Assembly: GCA_015039365.1 (NCBI GenBank)
Contig: WION01000153.1
Coordinates: forward strand, 56,778 to 120,777
Reading direction: 5' to 3'
Origin: Amanita rubescens
Lineage: Eukaryota; Basidiomycota; Agaricomycetes; Agaricales; Amanitaceae
Length of the DNA: 64,000 nt
In this document: positions 38,756-58,388 of the stretch, one piece after another
Layout of the letters: every line of letters begins with the position of its first letter
How positions within the stretch are numbered: the stretch's first letter is position 1
Notes under the pieces: generated by a model
Told to the model about the DNA's origin: nothing
What the model saw: only the letters and a program-made list of their open reading frames with translations
Database searches by the model: none
Program-made: the position numbers and the translations under genes

Positions 38756-41700
38756 TCATAAGACGTATTCGAGCATGGGCGAGTCCTTAACCGTGTCCCA
38801 ATTTTGTGCGTGAGGTTTATATCCTTGCTCAGCAATCCGGAGTTTGACAGTACTATGAACCAATATCTTGTTCTCGTAAAACGGAATGTACCTGCCAAGA
38901 CCGAAGTTACACCTATGGCAAAAACTGTCAACTATCGAATGCATATACAAGCTTCGCAATTGCTTACATCCGCCGACGGATCCAGTTTCCTTGAGAATCT
39001 TGATATGTCGATAACGTAGGAATAAATTCGAGTATCCACCAAAAGCACATAAAGAGTTGAATCACATCAACGATGTCGCGTAGGTACCCGTGTGAGTGGG
39101 TTTGGGGAGATCTGTTCGGGGCGACAAATGGCTGGGAAAGCGCTTTTGAAGGGCTTTCCCCAGCGTATTTCTCGAGTTCCTGATATGCTTCGCCCAACTC
39201 CTTCAACTTCATATTTCTTCGTCTCATCTCCGTCATGACGTCAAGAAAATCGAATTCTAACTCGTCCCGCAGATACTCCACATTGAACTGAATCCCTGTC
39301 TTTGCCAAGATACATTCCTTTATCATCCAACGCAGTGGTATGAATGATAGATTGGTATTGCGTCGCGTTGAAGGAGATCCTCCGCCAACGTCTGAATGGG
39401 AACCTGAGGTATGTAAGTAGCAATAACAGACACGTTTGCTCAAATTAAATCACCTGCAAACCAGACCTCTTTCACGTCAGTGTGGTCACGTTCTGGAGCT
39501 GTGTATTGCCACTTATCGCATTTGCTTTGCTCAACTTCCCAAGTAACAGGAAAATCGACATCCAGTTCTTGTTCATGCTCCACCGTGGCTTCACTCCACA
39601 CATTAGGGCGGAACCAGGCCCTGCGTTCATCGAGGGCAAGAGCATGTCGGAAGCACTTGATACTATAATTTACCGATGTGTACGGGTGCATCTGGGGAAT
39701 GATTCCCACAGAAGAAACGGTGTCCCTGTGTGCAAGGTAAACGCTCGAACAAATGATAGTAAGACGTTACCTTACCAAACACCAACAAAGTCAATAACGA
39801 CAGATGGGCTGATTGCAAAAGTTGGGTTAAAGCAGACGAGCTCGAGGAGAGGGAATAAGCATACTAGAACGCAAATGTCGATTTGAACTCCCGGCCGAGC
39901 TTATAGCCTTGATAGCCAGTGGTCATATATATGTTGAAGGCAAAGTCGACGTGCTGAGGATTGTCCCTTGACAAAATCCCAACCTTGAAAAGAGGCAGAC
40001 GTGTCTTTTCAGATCTGTGATAATAGAGTTGGCCTCACCTTGTAAACCATGCCTGCTACTGCTCGGGCCGTATGGGCTGAGAATACACCGGATCAAGACA
40101 TGTATAATTCCATAACAAAAAGACATACCGCCCCGTGAAAAACCGAACAAACAGATTTTGTCTCCAGGTTGGTAATTTTGAATAAGGAATGTATAACTGA
40201 GGAGTGTCAGTTAGTAATTATTGTAGGGAAGAGACGCCATTTTACCCATCCTTGATACAATCATCAAGGTTCCAGACTAATATACCAATACCCGGCTGAT
40301 ATCGATAATTGGTTAGCCGAAGGAAGCTGGAACAGTTGCGGACGAACCTGATAATACACGACCTGCTCTCTGTCAAGCTTTTTGAGAGCGCGAAAGAACC
40401 GGACGATGTTCGATTCCTGATGAAAAGTCAGTAGGATCCTCTGGAAAGTTTAAATTTGCATACTCGCTGCAAGAAGATTTAGCAAGTCAGTCAAGACTCG
40501 GCGAAGGATCGACACTAACCTCCCCGAGCTTGGCCCCTGTGCCGTCGAAGCACAGTATCAGAACTCTGCCGGAATCGCGGGAAGGACTGTTCTGAGGGCC
40601 GGGATGTAAGATGTCAAATTTTGGCGGCTCTTCCAGATTTGGGGTATGATAGGAAGTGCGAAACGGACTTGCGATATTGGGCACGGACGAAACCGGCGAT
40701 TTCGGATGCGTGATAGGCACGGCGTCACGGAAGGGACCGTCCTGAAGGGACTGGAGATGCAAGATGTTGAATTTCGACGACTTTTCCACATTGGGGATAG
40801 GATAGAAAATGCGAAGGGGACTTATTGGCCGCTCTTCTAATGTGGGTGTATCAGGGGGCGTGCCAGGAGGACTTGCGATATTGGATACAGACGAAACCGG
40901 CGAATTTAGATGTGATGTCGCGATAGGTACGATGCCAGTCCCTTGCATTTTGGGACTGGAGGTGTATGAGGGAGATTTGAGAGGAGTAAATAATGAATAT
41001 TTCCTACCTATAAGGGTCTGCATCTCTCTGGAGTTTCTTATCACGGTCATTCAAGCCGCTGGCATTAAACTAGCAAAAGGAAGAGCATGAGCTTTCATAT
41101 TGGCTTGCCCGAGCCACAGTTGCATACCTTATCCGACGGAACCGGTGAATTTAGACGTGATGTCGCGATAGATACGATGCCAGCCCCCTGCATTTTCGGA
41201 CTGGAGGCGTAAAAATAAGATTTAAGAGGAATGAATAATGAATATTTCCTACCTGTAAGGGTCTACATCTCTCTGGAGTTTCTTATCTCGGTCATTCAAG
41301 CCGCTGGCATTAAACTAGCAAAAGGAAGTGCATGAGTTTTCATATTGGTTCGTCCGAGTCACAGTTGCATACCTTATCCGACGAAACCGGCGAATTTAGA
41401 CGTGATGTCGCGATAGATACAATGCCAGCCCCTTGCGCTTTCGGACTGGAGGTGTAAAAGGAAGATTCAAGAGGAGTGAATAATGAATATTTCCTACCTG
41501 TAAGGGTCTACATCTCTCTGGAGTTTCTTATCTCGGTCATTCAAGCCGCTGGCATTAAACTAGCAAAAGGAAGTGCATGAGTTTTCATATTGGCTTGCCC
41601 GAGCCACAGTTGCATACCTTATCCGACGAAACCGGCGAATTTAGACGTGATGTCGCGATAGATACGATGCCAGCCCCCTGCATTTTCGGACTGGAGGCGG

Positions 41701-42066
41701 AAAAAAAAGATTTAAGAGGAATGAATAATGAATATTTCCTACCTGTAAGGGTCTACATCTCTCTGGAGTTTCTTATCTCGGTCATTCAAGCCGCTGGCAT
41801 TAAACTAGCAAAAGGAAGTGCATGAGTTTTCATATTGGCTCGTCTGAGTCACAGTTGCATACCTTATCCGCTAATGTAGGTGAAATATTTTTCTGAATAG
41901 TGTCCGTAGATTTGTGCTCAATAGTATGTGTAGCTGATTCGGATTTGGATGTAAATGCCATTGGCGCCTTCTTGTAACAAATTGTAAGCCGTGCCAATAT
42001 TCCTCGGATGGATGTTAATTTATCGCATCTTACCTGCTCATCCAAATCCACATCTAAACTTCTCAT
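38756..42066 (-). CDS. DUF2235 hydrolase 2 with spliced tandem-repeat N-terminus
   Basis: Exons: 42066-42034, 41970-41863, then four repeat pairs (41804-41743 + 41690-41618; 41559-41498 + 41445-41373; 41314-41253 + 41200-41128; 41069-41008 + 40955-40520), 40466-40464, 40416-40348, 40295-40246, 40196-40129, 40076-40039, 39983-39871, 39808-39776, 39725-39454, 39403-38968, 38912-38756 (2283 nt, 760 aa). After the 45-residue repeats comes a linker with SPVSSV-NIASP motifs. The DUF2235 core follows: LILCFDGTGAKLG, SNIVRFFRAL, YYQPGIGI, nucleophile elbow GFSRGA near 408, VIDFVGVWDTVSSVG, HALALDERR and SHSDVGGG. The C-terminus (YIPFYENKILVHST, QNWDTVKDSPM) is typical. The substrate is unknown. The start at 42066 is uncertain: it lies 88 bp after the stop proposed for the upstream gene, and the two could be one transcript. 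Confidence 0.82.
40880..41862 (-). repeat. Four 245-bp tandem repeats, each two exons plus two introns
   Basis: The period is exactly 245 bp (for example TTCCTACCT at 41001, 41246, 41491 and 41736). On the minus strand each unit is intron 58 + exon 62 + intron 52 + exon 73. The two exons sum to 135 nt, or 45 codons, starting FNASGLNDRDKKLQRD and ending LNSPVSSDK. Three units are complete. The fourth runs on into the gene body after SPVSS. Confidence 0.92.
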
Positions 42067-49464: not shown

Positions 49465-52400
49465 ATGGCAGATAGTGCACTTTCATTGAGTAATCCAATA
49501 TGATATCTTTGGCATTATCATCCTCTGATGGATGGAATCAGGCACAGATGAGACACATGTTAAACTGCTCAGGGAACAATATCTATGCCCATACTTTCGT
49601 ATACTTGTCATTGGGAGGGCTATTGCAGGCAAGACAACCATCCTTGAGAAGGTTTGTGGTGTAGCAAAGGGGACAAAACCCATCATATATGACAAGGATG
49701 GTAAGTCAGTCTGAGCTTGCTTGTGCTTCTTTTGATTGTTGAGTTTGTTGCAGGTAATCAGCTTGAACAGTCTGAAATACATTTGATGCCATCACTTGAG
49801 GTGAGCCAGATCATAATGGTGTATGGATGTATCCATTCACATGCAATGATGACAGAAACGCTTGCATAATATTGACCATCAAATTACATACCCTGGAAGT
49901 AACTTTATCTTCCATGACTCTCAGGGTTTTGAACCTGGTTCAACTGAGGAATTGGAGATTGCTTGGAAGTTCATTGAAAGGAAGTATGCAGAAACTGAGC
50001 TGAAGAATCAGCTACATGCAATTTGGTATCTTGCTTTATCCCTTTACATTACTGACTGACCAAGCCACCTGTAGGTACTGTATACCCATGGACAACTCTC
50101 ATCCTATTCAACCTGCAGAACTTGAATTCTTCAACAAAGGGACAGGCAGAGGTAGGTCCTAATGAATTCATATCTCATCTTGTTGGTTTTGGAGGGATTG
50201 TTTTCCCTTAACTATTGTTACCTCCTTTCCATTGATCAACTTGTCACAAAATCTACTAGTACTGACTAGTAAATATTCATTTTACAGTTCCTTTAGTGAC
50301 TATATTCACCAAATTTGATACTCAAATAGCCTGTGAATTTGACAAGTTGACTGATGCAAAGGATGAAGATGAGTGGGAGAGGGCCAGGGAAATTGCTGAA
50401 AGCACTTTTCAGACAGTTTATCTCCCTAAAGTTTTGAATGCTAAATATCCTCCTATAGCATATGTGAGATTAGAAGGTGAGAATAGTGAACATTTCTTCC
50501 TTGAAAATAAAATAAAAATGCTGCTTTATAGACATGGATTTGCCAGAGAAGGATTGCCCTGAATTGACTCAGAAAACTGCTGATGCAATTGATACAAGCA
50601 TACATCAACTGTTTGTTCTAACGCAGATGAATAATCTGGACTGTTCAGTTAAATCTGCACTTCGGTGAGGGTCACATTCAAAATGTCATTTACTAACATT
50701 GACATTGTTTAGACATGTTCTGAAACATAAACATTGGACATGGGATGATGTCATCATCATAGTTCTTTCAAAATTTCCACATTCCTGGGTATGCATTTTT
50801 GTCAAACTACACATCAGCATAGGAAATTCAAATGTCAATAGGTGGACAGGGAGGTAGGTGGCATTCATATGGAATGATAAATATCTGCAAAAAAGTTCAT
50901 TAGGAGGTAAGTAACATTCCAATACCATCAGATGAAAACAAGATTAGTCATGCTTCAGATGGCTAATAAACAACTGAGTGAAACACAGGTTAGTTGTCAC
51001 CATATTCTTGGTGGCAGGATCTAATGTTATTGATATCAGTGGGTAAGTACATAACATTGAGCTAGGATAAATCTTATATATTGTCCCATGACAACAGTTT
51101 GTGAGTAATGCTTCCTTTTGTGATCAGCAGTTTTGTCCCATAATCTACAGGAAGTGAGTAACTCTTTTTTTTTTGGTGAATTATCCCATGGCACATCATA
51201 TGATCAATAGCAAGTGAGTTAATCTATCACTCCAAGCAGACTTGTCAATCCAGTCTCTTGTGGACAGGGAGTGAGCAATACAACATTGCCTCACACCACA
51301 TCTGACCTGCTTAAAGAAAGTAAGCAACATTGATGTTTGTGCAGTTTATCAGATATAACTTGAGGAACAATAGAAAGTCAGTGACATACTTTATCTGAAA
51401 GAGAGTCCCAGCAAACTTCATTGAATCAACAACAGGAAGTAAGTGACATTTCCTTTCTGTCTGCTGGTAAACTGTCCCAAAACAACAGACAGTAAATATT
51501 TCTCCTTTTCAAAATCTCTTCACAAGCTACAAGCTATTGCAAAACAAATAGGACGTATGTGATACTTGTGTGAGATATGAATTCATCATATGAAATGCTA
51601 TTGCAAAAGAGGGTCAGTGGCATTGTATTCTTTTCTCCCAACTCATTATACCAATTCAATTCTAAAAGGAAGTGAGTGATGCTGGCCACTCTGCTGCAAG
51701 ACAATTTGGACACATTCTTTTGTTCTACAGACTGTGAGCGATATTGCAAGTTTTGTGAAAAGTAATGAAATCACATCTCCAACAGTCTGTGAGTGACATT
51801 GCACATTTTGTGAAATGCAGTCTCATCACATCATTTCCTATAACAAACAGCTAGTGAGTGATGTTGCACATTTTTTTGAAAGGCAGTCTCACCACATCTT
51901 TTCCTGTGACCAATAGCCAGTGAGTAGCATTGCACATTTTGTGGAAGGCAGTCTGATCACATCTTTTCCTATTACAGCTTGTGAGTAGCAGTGGATATTT
52001 TGTGAAAGGTAGTCTCATCACATCTTCTGCTATGACCAACAGCTTGTGAGTGACATAGCACATTTTGTGAAAAGCAGTCTCACCACATCTTTTCCTATGA
52101 CCAACAGCAAGTGAGTGACATTGTACACTCTGCAAAAGGCAGTCTCATCACATCTTTCTCTATGACCAACAGCAAGTAAGTAGCATTGCACATTTTGTGA
52201 AAGGCAGTCTCATCACATCTTTTCCTATGACCAACAGCAAGTGAGGTGCATTACACATTTTGTGAAAGGCAATCTCATCACATTTTTTCCTATCACCAAC
52301 AGGAAGTAAGTAGCATTGTACATGTTGTGAAAGGCAATCTCAACAAATCTTCTCCTATGATCAACAGTTTGTGAGTGACATTGCACATTTTGTGAGAAGC

Positions 52401-55400
52401 AGTCTCATCACATATTACAAACAGCCAGTGAGTGAAATTGCACATTTTGTGAAAGGCAGTCTCCTCACATCTTTTTCTATGACCAACAGCAAGTGAGTGG
52501 CATTGCACATTTGAAAGGCAGTCTCATCACATATTTTCCTATCATCAACAGCCAGTGAGTGACATTGCACATTTTGGAAAGGAGTCTCATCACATCTCTC
52601 CTTATGACCAACAGCATGTGAGTGGCATTTCACATTTTGTGAAAGGCAGTCTCATCACATCTTTTCCTATGACCAACAGCCAGTGAGTGACTTTGCACAT
52701 TTTGTGAAGGCAGTTTCATTACATCTTTTCATGTGACCAACAGATTGTCAGTGACATTGCACATTCCATGAAAGACAGTCTCATCACACCTTTTCCTATG
52801 ACCAACAGATTGTCAGTGACATTGCACATTTTGTGAAAGGCAGTCTCATTGCATCTTTCCCTATGACCAACAGTTTGTAAGTGACACATTTGTGAAAGGC
52901 AGTCTCATCACATCATCTCTTATGACCAACAGTTTGTGGGTGGCATTGCACATTTTGTGAAAGCCTGCAGTCTCATCACATGTTTTCCCTTGACCAACAG
53001 TTTGTGAGTGGCATTGCATATTTTGTGAAAGGCAGTCTCATCATATGTTTTCCTTTGACCAACAGGTTGTAAGTGACATTGCACATTTTGTGAAAGGCAG
53101 TCTCATCACATCTTTTCCTTACCAACAGCCAGTGAGTGAAATTGCACATTTTGTGAAAGGCAACCTCATCATATCTTTCTTATCACCAACAGCCAGTGAG
53201 TGAAATTGCACATTTTGTAAAGGCAGTCTGATCACATCTTTCCCTATGACCAACAGCAAGTGAGTGACATTGTACATTCTGTGAAAGGTGGTCTCATCAC
53301 ATCTTTTCCTATGACTAACAGCTTGTGAGTGACATTGCACATTTTGTGAAATACAGTCTCATCATATCTTTTCCAATGACCAACAGCTTGTGAGTAACAT
53401 TGCACATTTGTGAAAAGTCTCATCACATCTCCTCCCATGACCAACAGCAAGTGAGTGAAATTGCATATTTTGTGAAAATCAGTCTCATCCTATGACCAAC
53501 AGCAAGTGAGCAACATTGTGCATTGTTGTGAAACACACCCTTATCACATCTTTCCTATGAACAATAGCGTGTAAGTGACATTGTACATTGTTGTAAAACA
53601 GTCTCATTACATCTTGTCCCATGACCAACAGAAAGTGAGTTACATTGGATATTGTGTGAAAAGCAGTCTTATGTACTACAATATCAGGAAGTGAGTATTA
53701 GCCTCACCTTTTCTATTTCTTTGCCTTACATTATCACCCATAGATTGTAAGATTCCTTTTCAGCTTACCCAATCCTGGGGCCTCATGTAATCATTCCTGA
53801 CTTACATGATATCCTTAATTTTCAGGTAAGTGAAACTTGCTCATGAGACATTAATTTCATATCAGTTTGCATGCTAGTGTGTAGGTCTCATAGTACATTG
53901 AAGGATTTCCTCTTTCTTATTACTAGCATGCACTTTTCTCCATGTTTGGAGGTCAACAAGAGAACTTTGCAGTCAATGTATGGTTTTCTTTTCTATTGTA
54001 GTGCAAAACTGATACTATTGCAATAAGCCTACTGCTTGCCAAATTTTAGTTTGTAAATTATTCCATCTCATTTGCTCTATTTATGCTGAAACTTTCAAGC
54101 AATGATTATCATTGCCAAGTTATCATTTTGGATCAATAAACCATTTCTGCCATCAGTCATGGAAGCTTTTGATCAATTCAAGCAAAATGGCTTTATTGAG
54201 AAGCTGAAGACTGACATTACACCTCAGACTAATCTTATGCATTTTGGTCATCAAGAACTTGTTGAATTCCTCTACAAACAGGTGACTGACATTGATGGTA
54301 TGTGCTTTATCTACTCATGTGCCACATATGAACAATTTATGGCAAAGCAAACACTTCTTTGCTTTGGGATCGGGAGACAAAAAATGATGCAAGGGCAACC
54401 ATGGCAGCATTGCTTGCAGCCCTCCATAAGGTATTGCCTGTACCTCCCCAAGCATCTACCACATCTAATGACCTAGTCAACACTGCTTGGTGGTTCAATG
54501 GTTACCACACTCACCCTTGATCTTATGGGTGAATTGTTGCGCCTACCTGAATATTCTGTCCTTGCATCTGAACTGAGCACCTCAAACATTGAGTTGTTGC
54601 TTGATTTTATTCTTCATGTATGTATACACTTTTTGTCAGTTTATGCATACTAACTCTTTCTCTTTAGGCACTCTGCAAGGACAAATTTTCAAGGTTACAC
54701 ATGAGTTGGAGTGCAAATCAAAAGGCTAGGAGGCTTATGTTTGAACTGTTGTCCAAGATTCCCAACATCATACCAAAATCTCTTTTTATGACAGCTGATG
54801 TCAAAACTGAGATGATGATTGCTATAGGAGGCTATGGGCGTGTTTTCAAGGGTGTATACAAAGGATTACCAGTAGCACTGAAATTGGTGGACAGGGGTCA
54901 TACCAATGTTAGTGCTTTTCCAAGTTTTTCTTTTAAACAGCACTGACTTGTTTCATTTGAAGGATTCACTTGGCAAAGACTTTTGCCGGGAAGCTCTAGC
55001 ATGGAGATCACTCTCACACCATTTCATTCTTCCTCTCTTAGGGATATTTGAGGAGAGATCACAGCTCTTTCTTGTATCACCCTTCATGGCTAATGGGACA
55101 TTGACTGCATGGAGAAAGACATTGCAGGGAACAAACAAGATTCCTGAGATTCACAGACTGGTAACCAGGCTTCTGCCATGCTTTGATGATGAATTTGCTA
55201 ATGTTGTCTAGATGCTAGAGGTAGCAGAGGGTGTGAAGTATCTTCACTCGGAAGGAATTGTTCATGGTGACTTGCATGGAGTAAGGGTTCCAATTTATGC
55301 TCCCAAATCAGTCTATCACATTATTCACCAGCGTAATGTCCTCCTCAATTCTGAATTCCATTGCCAAATCACTGATTTTGGATCAACTCGACATTTCGAA

Positions 55401-55837
55401 GCCACCGTTACACGATCTACAACAGCATTTGCTATGAATTTTGTTGCGCCTGAGCTCTTTGGCATGTGTACCACGTGTGGTCTATTCGACTGTGACGGAT
55501 GCCGGGGAGATCAGGCTGCACAGAAAAGACGCAAAACAATGGAAACAGATGTTTACTCTTTTGGTTGCCTTTATTATGCTGTATGTATAGATTTCCGCTT
55601 GATCAGTGGTGCATTAATCTGGGAGCTGTACAGACATTCTTTGATTCCATCCCTTTTCATGGAAAGACCGAAATTCAAATTGTTCGACTCGTCACGAATG
55701 GAAAACGCCCGGATCGATTAGAAAGTCCAAGTATGGAAGACGATATATGGCATCTCATTCAGAGATGTTGGGAGTCCATTCCTTCTAAACGTTCGACGAT
55801 AAAGGACATCACGACGGCGTTAGCTTCACGTGCTTGA
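49465..55837 (+). CDS. G-domain GTPase - microexon array - protein kinase gene
   Basis: The proposed protein is 839 aa from 67 exons. N-terminal exons: 49465-49489, 49542-49700, 49754-49800, 49856-50025, 50075-50151, 50288-50476, 50532-50664, 50713-50788, 50842-50853. They give a G domain with P-loop GRAIAGKT (33-40), FIFHDSQGFE (Walker B/G3) and FTKFD (G4, TKxD-like). After the microexon array come 53927-53977, 54028-54052, 54100-54297, 54348-54430, 54477-54617, 54668-54907, 54963-55160, 55212-55280, 55332-55580 and 55634-55837. These encode a kinase domain: GGYGRVFKG at 574, VALKL lysine at 592, HGDLHGRNVLLN at 684, DFG at 704 and VAPELFG. HGD replaces HRD, as in many fungal TKL-like kinases. 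A GTPase feeding a kinase across a hypervariable linker suggests a signalling receptor or switch; this is inference. If the array is not spliced as microexons, it would be one 2.9-kb intron. Confidence 0.72.
50854..53926 (+). repeat. Array of 47 single-codon microexons and their introns
   Basis: Every 46-70 bp an acceptor (mostly CAACAG) is followed by exactly three bases and a donor (mostly GTGAGT or GTAAGT). Triplet starts: GAG 50904; TGG 51040; TTT 51098, 52368, 52874, 52933, 53001; GAA 51151, 51436, 51669, 52303, 53688; CAA 51211, 52108, 52173, 52238, 52490, 53257, 53448, 53503; GGA 51268; AAA 51317, 51374, 53632; ACA 51489; GAC 51552; AGG 51610; ACT 51731; TCT 51786; CTA 51851; CCA 51917, 52425, 52552, 52680, 53129, 53193; CTT 51978, 52043, 53322, 53387; CAT 52615; ATT 52744, 52809, 53744; GTT 53066; CGT 53568; TGT 53878. 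A 30-nt exon (50959-50988) also lies within. All are phase 0 and none is a stop. Confidence 0.75.
51734..53640 (+). repeat. Core of near-identical ~62-bp intron repeats
   Basis: About 30 units of the form GTGAGTGACATTGCACATTT, then TGTGAAAGGCAGTCTCATCA, then CATCTTTTCCTATGACCAAC, then AG and a variable triplet. Divergence is a few percent in the middle and rises towards both ends. This indicates expansion from the centre by tandem duplication. Confidence 0.9.
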
Positions 55838-57033: not shown

Positions 57034-58388
57034 TCAAGCCGAAAGTTTTTTCTTGAGGAGGTTCTTGAGAGTGACGCCATCTTCGGCAAACTTCTTGATG
57101 CCCTCGTGCAACTTGTCAAAGGCCATCTGTTCCTGCAAGAGATCCCAGCGGAACTCTGCCTCGTTGTTAATATAAGAGACTTTGGCGAGGGGCTCAGCTT
57201 GCGCAGCTAGAGTTATCAATGAGACGACGGCATCGGTCGAAGCCTGTGCAATACGTACCATTTGCTGCGCTGAGCTTCTTGGGAACCGGGTTGCTCGAGT
57301 TCTTAAGCTCGTCCAAAAGGGCAGGGGAGATGGTCAAGAAATCTACTCCCGCCAAGGCCTTGATCTCTCCGGTCTAATCACGGATAAGATACCAAAAATA
57401 ACAGATAACGACAAGGCCTACGTTGCGGAATGATGCGCCCATGACGATAGTCTTGTAACCATGCTGCTTGTAATAGTTATAGATCTTCTTTACGGACTGG
57501 ACACCTGGGTCCTCATCGCCCTCATAGTTTTTCCCGGTAGCCTTCTTGTACCAATCGAGGATCTATTCGTGATATCAGTTAACTCTGGTCGTTATATATA
57601 GAGCGTAAGAAAGTGGGCATACTCGACCGACGAAGGGTGAGATCAGGGTAATGCCTGCCTCTGCACAGGCCACCGCTTGAGGGAAGCCGAAGAGAAGAGT
57701 GAGATTGCAGTGGATTTGGTCATCCCGTTCTAATTCCCGCGCAGCTTGGATGCCCTCCCAGGTAGATGCGATTTTGATGAGGATACGCTCCTTTGGGACG
57801 CCGATAGACTGGTAGAGAGCGATCAACTCTTTTGCCTATATGCGCGGCGATTAAGATATGATTAAGATTAGATAGCATGGGAGATCAAACGTGCCTTCTT
57901 CTTTGTGCCTTCCTTATCGAAGGACAGGCGTGCGTCCACTTCGGTGGAAACTCGGCCCGGGATGATCTTCAAGATCGCACTGCCAAACTCGACAAGCTGA
58001 CAATTGGTGATCAGTCGTGTTGTTACGACACTACTTATTAGACCTACGAGTCTGTCGAGAGCGTGATCCGCCTGAGCATCGAGATCGCCACCCCTTTCTT
58101 TGCCATATTTGATAGCAGCGTCAATGAGATGCGCATAGTTGGGCTTGTTGGCGGCGGCAAGGATCAATGAGGGGTTTGTCGTGGCATCCTAAATTGAAAC
58201 TGTTAAGAGAATGATAAGACGTTTCGACTGCTGGACGCACTTGAGGCTTGTATACATCGATAGCTGAGAATTTTCAGGGTCAGTCTATCTTATCTTGAAA
58301 CGCGGGGAGGGTACGTACATTCGAAATCTCCGGAATCGGAAACCACAACGGTTCCAGTTTGCTTGAGTTGGTCGAGTGAGTTGGACAT
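57034..58388 (-). CDS. TAL1: Transaldolase
   Basis: Exons: 58388-58319, 58263-58241, 58188-58048, 57996-57895, 57835-57623, 57562-57422, 57373-57259, 57206-57034 (978 nt, 325 aa, the normal length). Class I transaldolase motifs run throughout: [24 protein letters not shown], the Schiff-base lysine at about 133 in [58 protein letters not shown] and LTISPALL. The enzyme exchanges a three-carbon dihydroxyacetone unit between sugar phosphates in the cytosolic pentose phosphate pathway. The fourth intron (57894-57836, 59 nt) starts GCACGT and ends ATAG. This GC-AG intron is needed to keep [12 protein letters not shown] in frame. Confidence 0.96.

Follow-up and report, generated by a model that had tools for sequence, protein, structure and literature searches.

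Arrays of predicted one-codon exons in a GTPase gene family of the basidiomycete Amanita rubescens

The subject of this analysis is a gene of the basidiomycete Amanita rubescens that lies in a stretch of 64,000 nucleotides (assembly GCA_015039365.1, contig WION01000153.1, positions 56,778 to 120,777 of the forward strand), here called the window. The gene consists of a half encoding a GTPase domain (G domain) and a half encoding a protein kinase, and between them lies an array of short introns separated by single codons (Table 1). The array is very probably a series of intron-plus-one-codon units whose codons are singly spliced and translated, by which a large family of GTPase genes would build a variable loop, one residue to each exon.

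The window gene

The assembled model of the gene has 60 exons between 49532 and 54430 and forms a single open frame of 467 codons. Every 3-nt exon is entered in phase 0 and there are no stops, which bears out the proposal of the initial annotation, made from the sequence alone, that the array is stop-free and keeps the frame open. The same annotation counted about 47 consecutive single-codon exons. The 46 exons at 51040-53880 stand, and the 47th, at 50904, is separate and probable, resting on paralogues. Its overall count, 67 exons with 839 codons, was not matched by the scripted model, the later kinase exons having been read off the frames. Its coding path after 53977 has also been amended, and most likely passes through 54028-54052 (PTACQIL..) and then 54100-54297, as in the homologues P0019 and P0001. 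All of the post-array exons agree with these two proteins; P0019 is an Amanita brunnescens model that starts just after the array position and matches the Pfam families PF07714 (5.5e-42) and PF00069 (1.4e-41).

Within the 3,089-bp array there are 39 instances of the pattern AGNNNGT[AG]AG, compared with two in the remaining 59,500 bp of the window. The introns have a median length of 60 bp and adjacent splice sites are 3 nt apart; the donor is weaker in two of the units, namely ACA at 51489 (GTAAAT) and TGT at 53878 (GTAGGT). Intron lengths in the decoded stretch follow no multiple-of-three rule, with a remainder of 2 in 26 introns, of 1 in 11 and of 0 in 10. The decoder's own preference ahead of the array was a single 57-nt exon, 50932-50988; the exons at 50904-50906 and 50959-50988 were placed by hand instead, because the five other decoded genes carry a one-codon E or V exon there. 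At the position of the VDRE exon, L044 has ADRE, and none was found in L046, among the six decoded genes described below. Spliced as predicted, the array would read WFEQGKKETDRE.. in order, and its inclusion would add 138 nt to a molecule that skips it.

Table 1. Features of the GTPase-kinase gene in the window (positions are those of the window)
Feature	Position	Strand	Remarks
G-domain half	49532..50788	+	Open frame, GT/AG sites
G-domain exons 1-4	49532-49700, 49754-49800, 49856-50025, 50075-50151	+	
G-domain exons 5-7	50288-50476, 50532-50664, 50713-50788	+	
12-nt exon VDRE	50842..50853	+	VDRE in 4/6 decoded genes, including the window
Isolated one-codon exon GAG (E), probable	50904..50906	+	Placed by hand after paralogues
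30-nt exon MANKQLSETQ	50959..50988	+	Similar peptide runs unbroken into WFEH.. in P0032
Array of 46 one-codon exons, introns 46-131 bp	51040..53880	+	Decoded; predicted peptide WFEQGKKETDRETSLPLLQQQEFPQPHPIIFFFVPPQLLQQRKEIC
One-codon exon starts (1)	51040 51098 51151 51211 51268 51317 51374 51436 51489 51552 51610 51669		
One-codon exon starts (2)	51731 51786 51851 51917 51978 52043 52108 52173 52238 52303 52368 52425		
One-codon exon starts (3)	52490 52552 52615 52680 52744 52809 52874 52933 53001 53066 53129 53193		
One-codon exon starts (4)	53257 53322 53387 53448 53503 53568 53632 53688 53744 53878		
Homogeneous array core, 65-bp period (intron + codon)	51779..53669	+	Tandem Repeats Finder, 29.7 copies, 79% matches
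Post-array exons	53927-53977 (HALFSMFG..), 54028-54052 (PTACQIL), 54100-54297, 54348-54430	+	
Protein kinase half, several exons	54668..55837	+	Read from frames; homologue P0019 with kinase Pfam

A family of arrays and its triplets

The gene was initially taken to be a single exceptional case, which is wrong: the array structure is common to a large family of paralogues. A strict unit pattern allowing up to 3 mismatches matched the whole assembly (75.7 Mb in 786 contigs) 1,437 times on the forward and 1,342 times on the reverse strand, 2,779 in all, and its reversed control 0 times. The pattern recovers 403 of the 564 units across 14 loci, and the assembly may hold about 3,900 one-codon exons, an estimate in which some regions are present twice. 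The G-domain exon of the window has at least 150 matches in its own genome (150 of 263 candidates scored). The matches listed form 18 array clusters, of which 15 follow a G-domain match on the same strand at a distance of no more than 5 kb, the others being at C3:127-135 kb, at C35:172-174 kb and on C12, at a contig end. One locus, L053, has a G domain and no array within 6.5 kb. For the first kinase exon, at least 8 matches of nearly full length with an identity of 65% or higher were found, plus shorter ones (150 of 406 candidates scored), and the window type of kinase thus seems confined to part of the family.

Two loci are copies of the window gene. L039 (C363:49756-56255) is identical to it base for base over 6.5 kb on another contig, and L040 (C146:63042-69541) is a 99.5% version with 584 extra bases ahead of the array; some regions are therefore present more than once in the assembly.

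Pfam matches of P0026, P0001 and P0003, all homologues, are to MMR_HSR1/Arf and fall under the curated cut-off. In these three and P0019, no match to NACHT or ANK up to E 0.1, and no WD40, ANK or tetratricopeptide (TPR) repeats, were found by Pfam. Seven public A. rubescens models were compared (P0025, P0027, P0033, P0039, P0065, P0081 and P0090); six end at or before the array, and P0081 continues past it without a linker.

The case for the triplets as codons comes from their length and their content. Acceptor and donor matrices were built from the intronic bases of the window units, with a lower threshold and with exon length unconstrained. At 23 loci, some of them overlapping or allelic (L039, equal to the window, was left out, and the allele L040 and overlapping loci were kept), 791 acceptor-donor pairs have a spacing of 0-19 nt, and in 763 of these it is exactly 3 nt. 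The others comprise 4 pairs at 0 nt, 9 at 1, 2 or 4 nt and 15 at 6 or 9 nt, with none at 5, 7 or 8. Strict genome-wide matches have an AG-to-GT spacing of 3 nt in 920 of 952 cases (0-15 nt counted). As a control, exon spacing departs from its mode in 6.7% of cases, against 21-39% for four spacings internal to the introns, a three- to sixfold difference; this control, like the test on identical introns given below, leaves out L039, L040, L051, L052 and two overlapping loci. Indels between near-identical copies fall in introns in four cases out of five, the fifth being in an ordinary exon (SKFPHFW) of L051.

No stop occurs among 670 triplets counted as distinct contexts over the same set of loci as the spacings. 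Independent positions would lead one to expect about 37, a rough figure because the positions are dependent, NTA triplets being rare too. A simpler comparison is that across the whole genome, with 1 TRA triplet to 375 CRA triplets. The third base of the 670 one-codon exons is A or T in 630 and C in 3, and G is rare, unlike in the ordinary exons of the window gene, of which 11 of 13 have a final G. In NNA triplets, A stands in second position 209 times, G 112 times, C 31 times and T 6 times, so that NTA is nearly absent. NTA or NCA before GT would make TAG or CAG one base into the donor, and avoidance of such false acceptors would shape the usage of NNA triplets. That the array triplets behave as translated codons is strongly supported by these statistics.

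Codon order, homologous linkers and codon change

Six genes (that of the window, L044, L046, L047, L048 and L052) were decoded by dynamic programming, with exon lengths forced to multiples of three; L040 yielded no decoded chain, and six loci without an anchor were left undecoded. The decoded genes have 29 to 62 exons of 3 nt, and in all six the array starts with the codons for W F E Q G K. The continuation is K E T D R E in the window, L046 and L044 and T D R E in L047 and L052, which are near-identical to each other, so that TDRE occurs in five of the six; L048 deviates.

The same residues occur without interruption in two open reading frames from JGI, P0032, with the continuous reading MANKQLSEAQWFEHGKKDTDKQI, and P0026, with TNEQLSETKWFEKGKKESDREI. 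The frame of P0026 runs to 386 codons on a contig of 1,446 bp, and that of P0032, which begins within the G domain, to 311 codons in 1,903 bp. Both are intron-free where the A. rubescens stretches are split with stops between, and they are therefore probably transcripts, apparently of another Amanita; the best A. rubescens matches to them reach at most 89% identity per exon among the matches listed. The decoded codon strings of five genes were compared with the linkers of P0032 and P0026, and in each of the 10 comparisons they beat all 2,000 shuffles. For P0113, another JGI protein, 12 to 53 of 2,000 shuffles were equally good. When scored for fit to the pool of residues encoded by the one-codon exons, the central parts of the P0026 and P0032 linkers, whose ends were chosen by hand, reached +14.4 and +11.3 bits, and in controls from ordinary exons 1,396 segments of 38 residues reached at most -1.7 bits and 1,414 segments of 20 residues at most 5.0 bits. 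P0001, P0002, P0003 and P0113 are JGI relatives with a linker of different composition at the same place, and are perhaps family members without one-codon arrays. P0079 was considered as a case of array skipping and set aside, its piece misfitting the residue pool (-5.9 bits).

An AlphaFold model of P0001 from 26 sequences (mean predicted local distance difference test score, pLDDT, 77.8) consists of a G domain and a helical domain. The linker, residues 294-358, has a pLDDT below 50, whereas the blocks ahead of it average 79-83 and those behind it 72-94. The linker of P0001 is of another composition, and the model therefore shows only the location of the variable segment. The array is thus predicted to encode a disordered segment inside the helical domain after the GTPase domain. 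Foldseek placed dynamin-like and immunity-related (IRG) GTPases on top for this model, a loose similarity only, with template modelling scores by query of at most 0.37 and a root-mean-square deviation of 10-13 for the IRG matches. A sequence search of the PDB with P0026 gave one meaningless match, to an antibody chain (E 0.23).

Codons and introns appear to have changed in different ways. Unit pairs in which both flanking introns are identical (n=416, of which 407 in L048 and 9 in L045) have the same codon in 29% of cases, and the 131 pairs of L045 at an intron distance of up to 3% in 23%. By chance the codons of a pair would agree in 22% of cases within L048 and in 13% within L045, compared with 29% and 23-33% at identical or near-identical introns, and the decoupling is thus not absolute. 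Over the whole arrays of four related loci, introns differ by 0.7-1.0% and codon bases by 36-49%, distant units being uncertain because of unit turnover; in the collinear first 10-14 units, introns differ by 0.5-1.6% and codon bases by 5-23% (2/39 to 11/48). None of the 19 changed codons in the collinear parts is synonymous, a count that comes from non-independent pairs and includes one 4-nt unit. Between L047 and L052, 0 of 159 exon bases are changed.

Identical codons are neighbours 82 times, above all of 1,000 shuffles (mean 58), which fits duplication of single units, and the four related loci differ from one another by large gaps, several of them near unit multiples. The codons would thus have diversified or been retained while the introns were homogenised. 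Ongoing hypermutation of the triplets, suggested by the pairs with identical introns and by the four related loci, was considered and rejected: two allele pairs do not support it (1/102 and 0/141 codon bases changed), nor does L047 against L052, and unit turnover weakens the contrast between whole arrays, which persists at a smaller size among collinear units.

Elsewhere in the window, at 40890-41870, a 245-bp unit is repeated head to tail about four times (92% matches), with no apparent connection to the one-codon array. Minus-strand frames at 57034-58188 encode a peptide that resembles transaldolase.

Explanations and known systems

In the proposed explanation, the loop would sit in the domain after the GTPase domain, flanked by helices that are predicted with more confidence. 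Since each unit consists of an intron and a complete codon, unequal exchange that adds or deletes a unit would lengthen or shorten the loop by one residue and keep the frame. Neighbouring splice sites are 3 nt apart, and the introns are therefore likely removed sequentially rather than all at once. Introns in the centre of the array would be homogenised while the codons stay or become diverse, a pattern that would resemble the concerted evolution and diversifying selection of fungal non-self-recognition repeats. By that likeness, the loop would likely recognise non-self or partner molecules, and a signal would be passed on through the GTPase and, in some members, the kinase.

Several observations weigh against this explanation. 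The support comes from DNA sequence, in which the transcript reading of the array is predicted, and the recognition role is an analogy. One TGA triplet is present, and the arrays of L048 and L055 contain units of 2 or 4 nt that shift the frame, possibly because these arrays are decaying. The ordinary SKFPHFW exon of L051 is frame-broken, one base shorter than in the near-identical L047, through either a broken copy or an assembly error. The transcript status of P0026 and P0032 is judged by the missing homologous introns, both depart from the expected frame past the linker, and they are the only two with this type of linker among the 23 JGI proteins compared by eye. The linkers of P0001, P0002 and P0113 misfit the residue pool and that of P0003 barely fits (+1.3 bits); against P0001-P0003, more than 5% of shuffles were equal in 9 of 15 comparisons. 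Codon change is not in excess in either of the two allele pairs, and the one change seen in them is synonymous.

The homogeneous core, a 65-bp tandem repeat with 79% matches, and the fact that all but one of the seven public models end at the array or short of it would suit a minisatellite inside one long intron, its triplets untranslated and its splice-like motifs mere passengers of amplification. This is hardly credible in view of the exact 3-nt spacing, the absence of stops, the common codon order and the two matching homologues that are probably transcripts, and the frame and stop statistics led to the rejection of a purely minisatellite reading; the same constraints on length, stops and codon order, together with those homologues, uphold the earlier view that the array is more than a by-product of such a repeat. 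It is also quite improbable that the units act as a splicing ratchet, stepping the spliceosome across 3 kb in the manner of recursive splicing with the codons incidental. Short introns (median 60 bp) with sites 3 nt apart are what such a device would have, but there is no known need for a 3-kb gap at this position, the codons at the array start are common to paralogues, and L053 has a G domain without an array in 6.5 kb.

Introner-like elements, known from fungi and other eukaryotes, provide many near-identical spliceosomal introns per genome, as summarised in two articles (PMC4457414, PMC9860276), and near-identical introns in many copies (2,779 against 0 in the control) are found here as well. 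The introns could thus be new copies inserted into the codon boundaries of an older continuous exon whose codons are old, in keeping with the weak tie of codon identity to intron similarity and with first codons that match contiguous residues in P0026 and P0032. Such an origin is nevertheless unlikely. If insertion were random, nearly all introns would not be spaced by exactly one codon; the number of 3-nt exons varies from 29 to 62 among the decoded genes, identical neighbouring codons are in excess (82 against 58), and the four related loci differ by large gaps, several near unit multiples. By those accounts, introner-like elements are inserted in many genes, whereas the A. rubescens units are in tandem and most of the clusters listed (15 of 18) appear tied to one family.

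Two further proposals would extend the intron-plus-codon explanation. As all 3-nt exons are in phase 0, any subset of triplets keeps the frame, and alternative skipping of codons, possible in principle, could yield many loop isoforms per gene, as reviews describe for truffle NACHT-ANK genes. That such combinatorial output is the main one we regard as a tentative possibility, compatible with the explanation preferred here and not exclusive of it. It is rather doubtful that the roughly 3,900 one-codon exons estimated form a genome-scale system of codon-by-codon diversification in GTPase receptor genes, with whole codons being swapped, by a process as yet unknown or by extreme selection, while flanking introns of over 100 bp stay identical, so that loops would be rewritten residue by residue with the splice units untouched.

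The initial annotation held that no fungal gene is so built, which is mistaken. The NACHT-ANK genes of the truffle Tuber melanosporum are described in reviews as having tens or dozens of codon-sized, alternatively spliced exons (PMC4986451, PMC3689799, PMC10197012, PMC9815663). As those descriptions go, both are expanded fungal families with tens to dozens of codon-sized exons in a diversified segment, which by sequence number 46 in the window and 29-62 in the decoded genes; the truffle genes encode ascomycete NOD-like receptors (NLRs) with NACHT and ankyrin domains, and the genes described here a basidiomycete GTPase with or without a kinase. The primary study of these truffle (nank) genes and their 3-bp mini-exons is said to be that of Iotti et al. 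in 2012.

The WD repeats of het-d and het-e in Podospora anserina undergo concerted evolution and have positively selected codons (PMC1805685). As that article outlines them, they share with the A. rubescens arrays near-identical tandem units with a few hypervariable codons each, a feature found here in the arrays of L048 and L045 only, and repeats that are common across a gene family. The entire WD40 repeat is coding, whereas here the coding part would be a single codon in each unit, all else being intron. Single-nucleotide exons are reported in Arabidopsis APC11 (PMC4674806) and Fusarium CYP621A (PMC12940212), and going by these reports they show that exons so small can be spliced, in a fungus too; they are single exons, whereas A. 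rubescens has arrays.

Schistosome micro-exon genes have many tiny symmetric exons and encode secreted proteins; their exons are longer than the one-codon exons here and the family is unrelated. In the open-access literature on microexons in fungi, basidiomycetes, Agaricomycetes and Amanita, no report from Amanita was found. Arrays of codon-sized exons are already known in kind, from the truffle genes; their protein family, phylum and scale here were not found in the literature searched, and the basidiomycete GTPase arrays are a case separate from the truffle genes.

If the one-codon reading is true, it would account for the six of seven public models that end at or before the array, and it would strain models of splice-site recognition, with sites 3 nt apart 46 consecutive times. 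The arrays would also provide a natural test of the separate evolution of codons and introns within one repeat. Should transcripts confirm the reading, two fungal families that differ widely, the NLRs of an ascomycete and the GTPases of a basidiomycete, would both have arrived at codon-sized exon arrays, which would indicate a general route to recognition loops.

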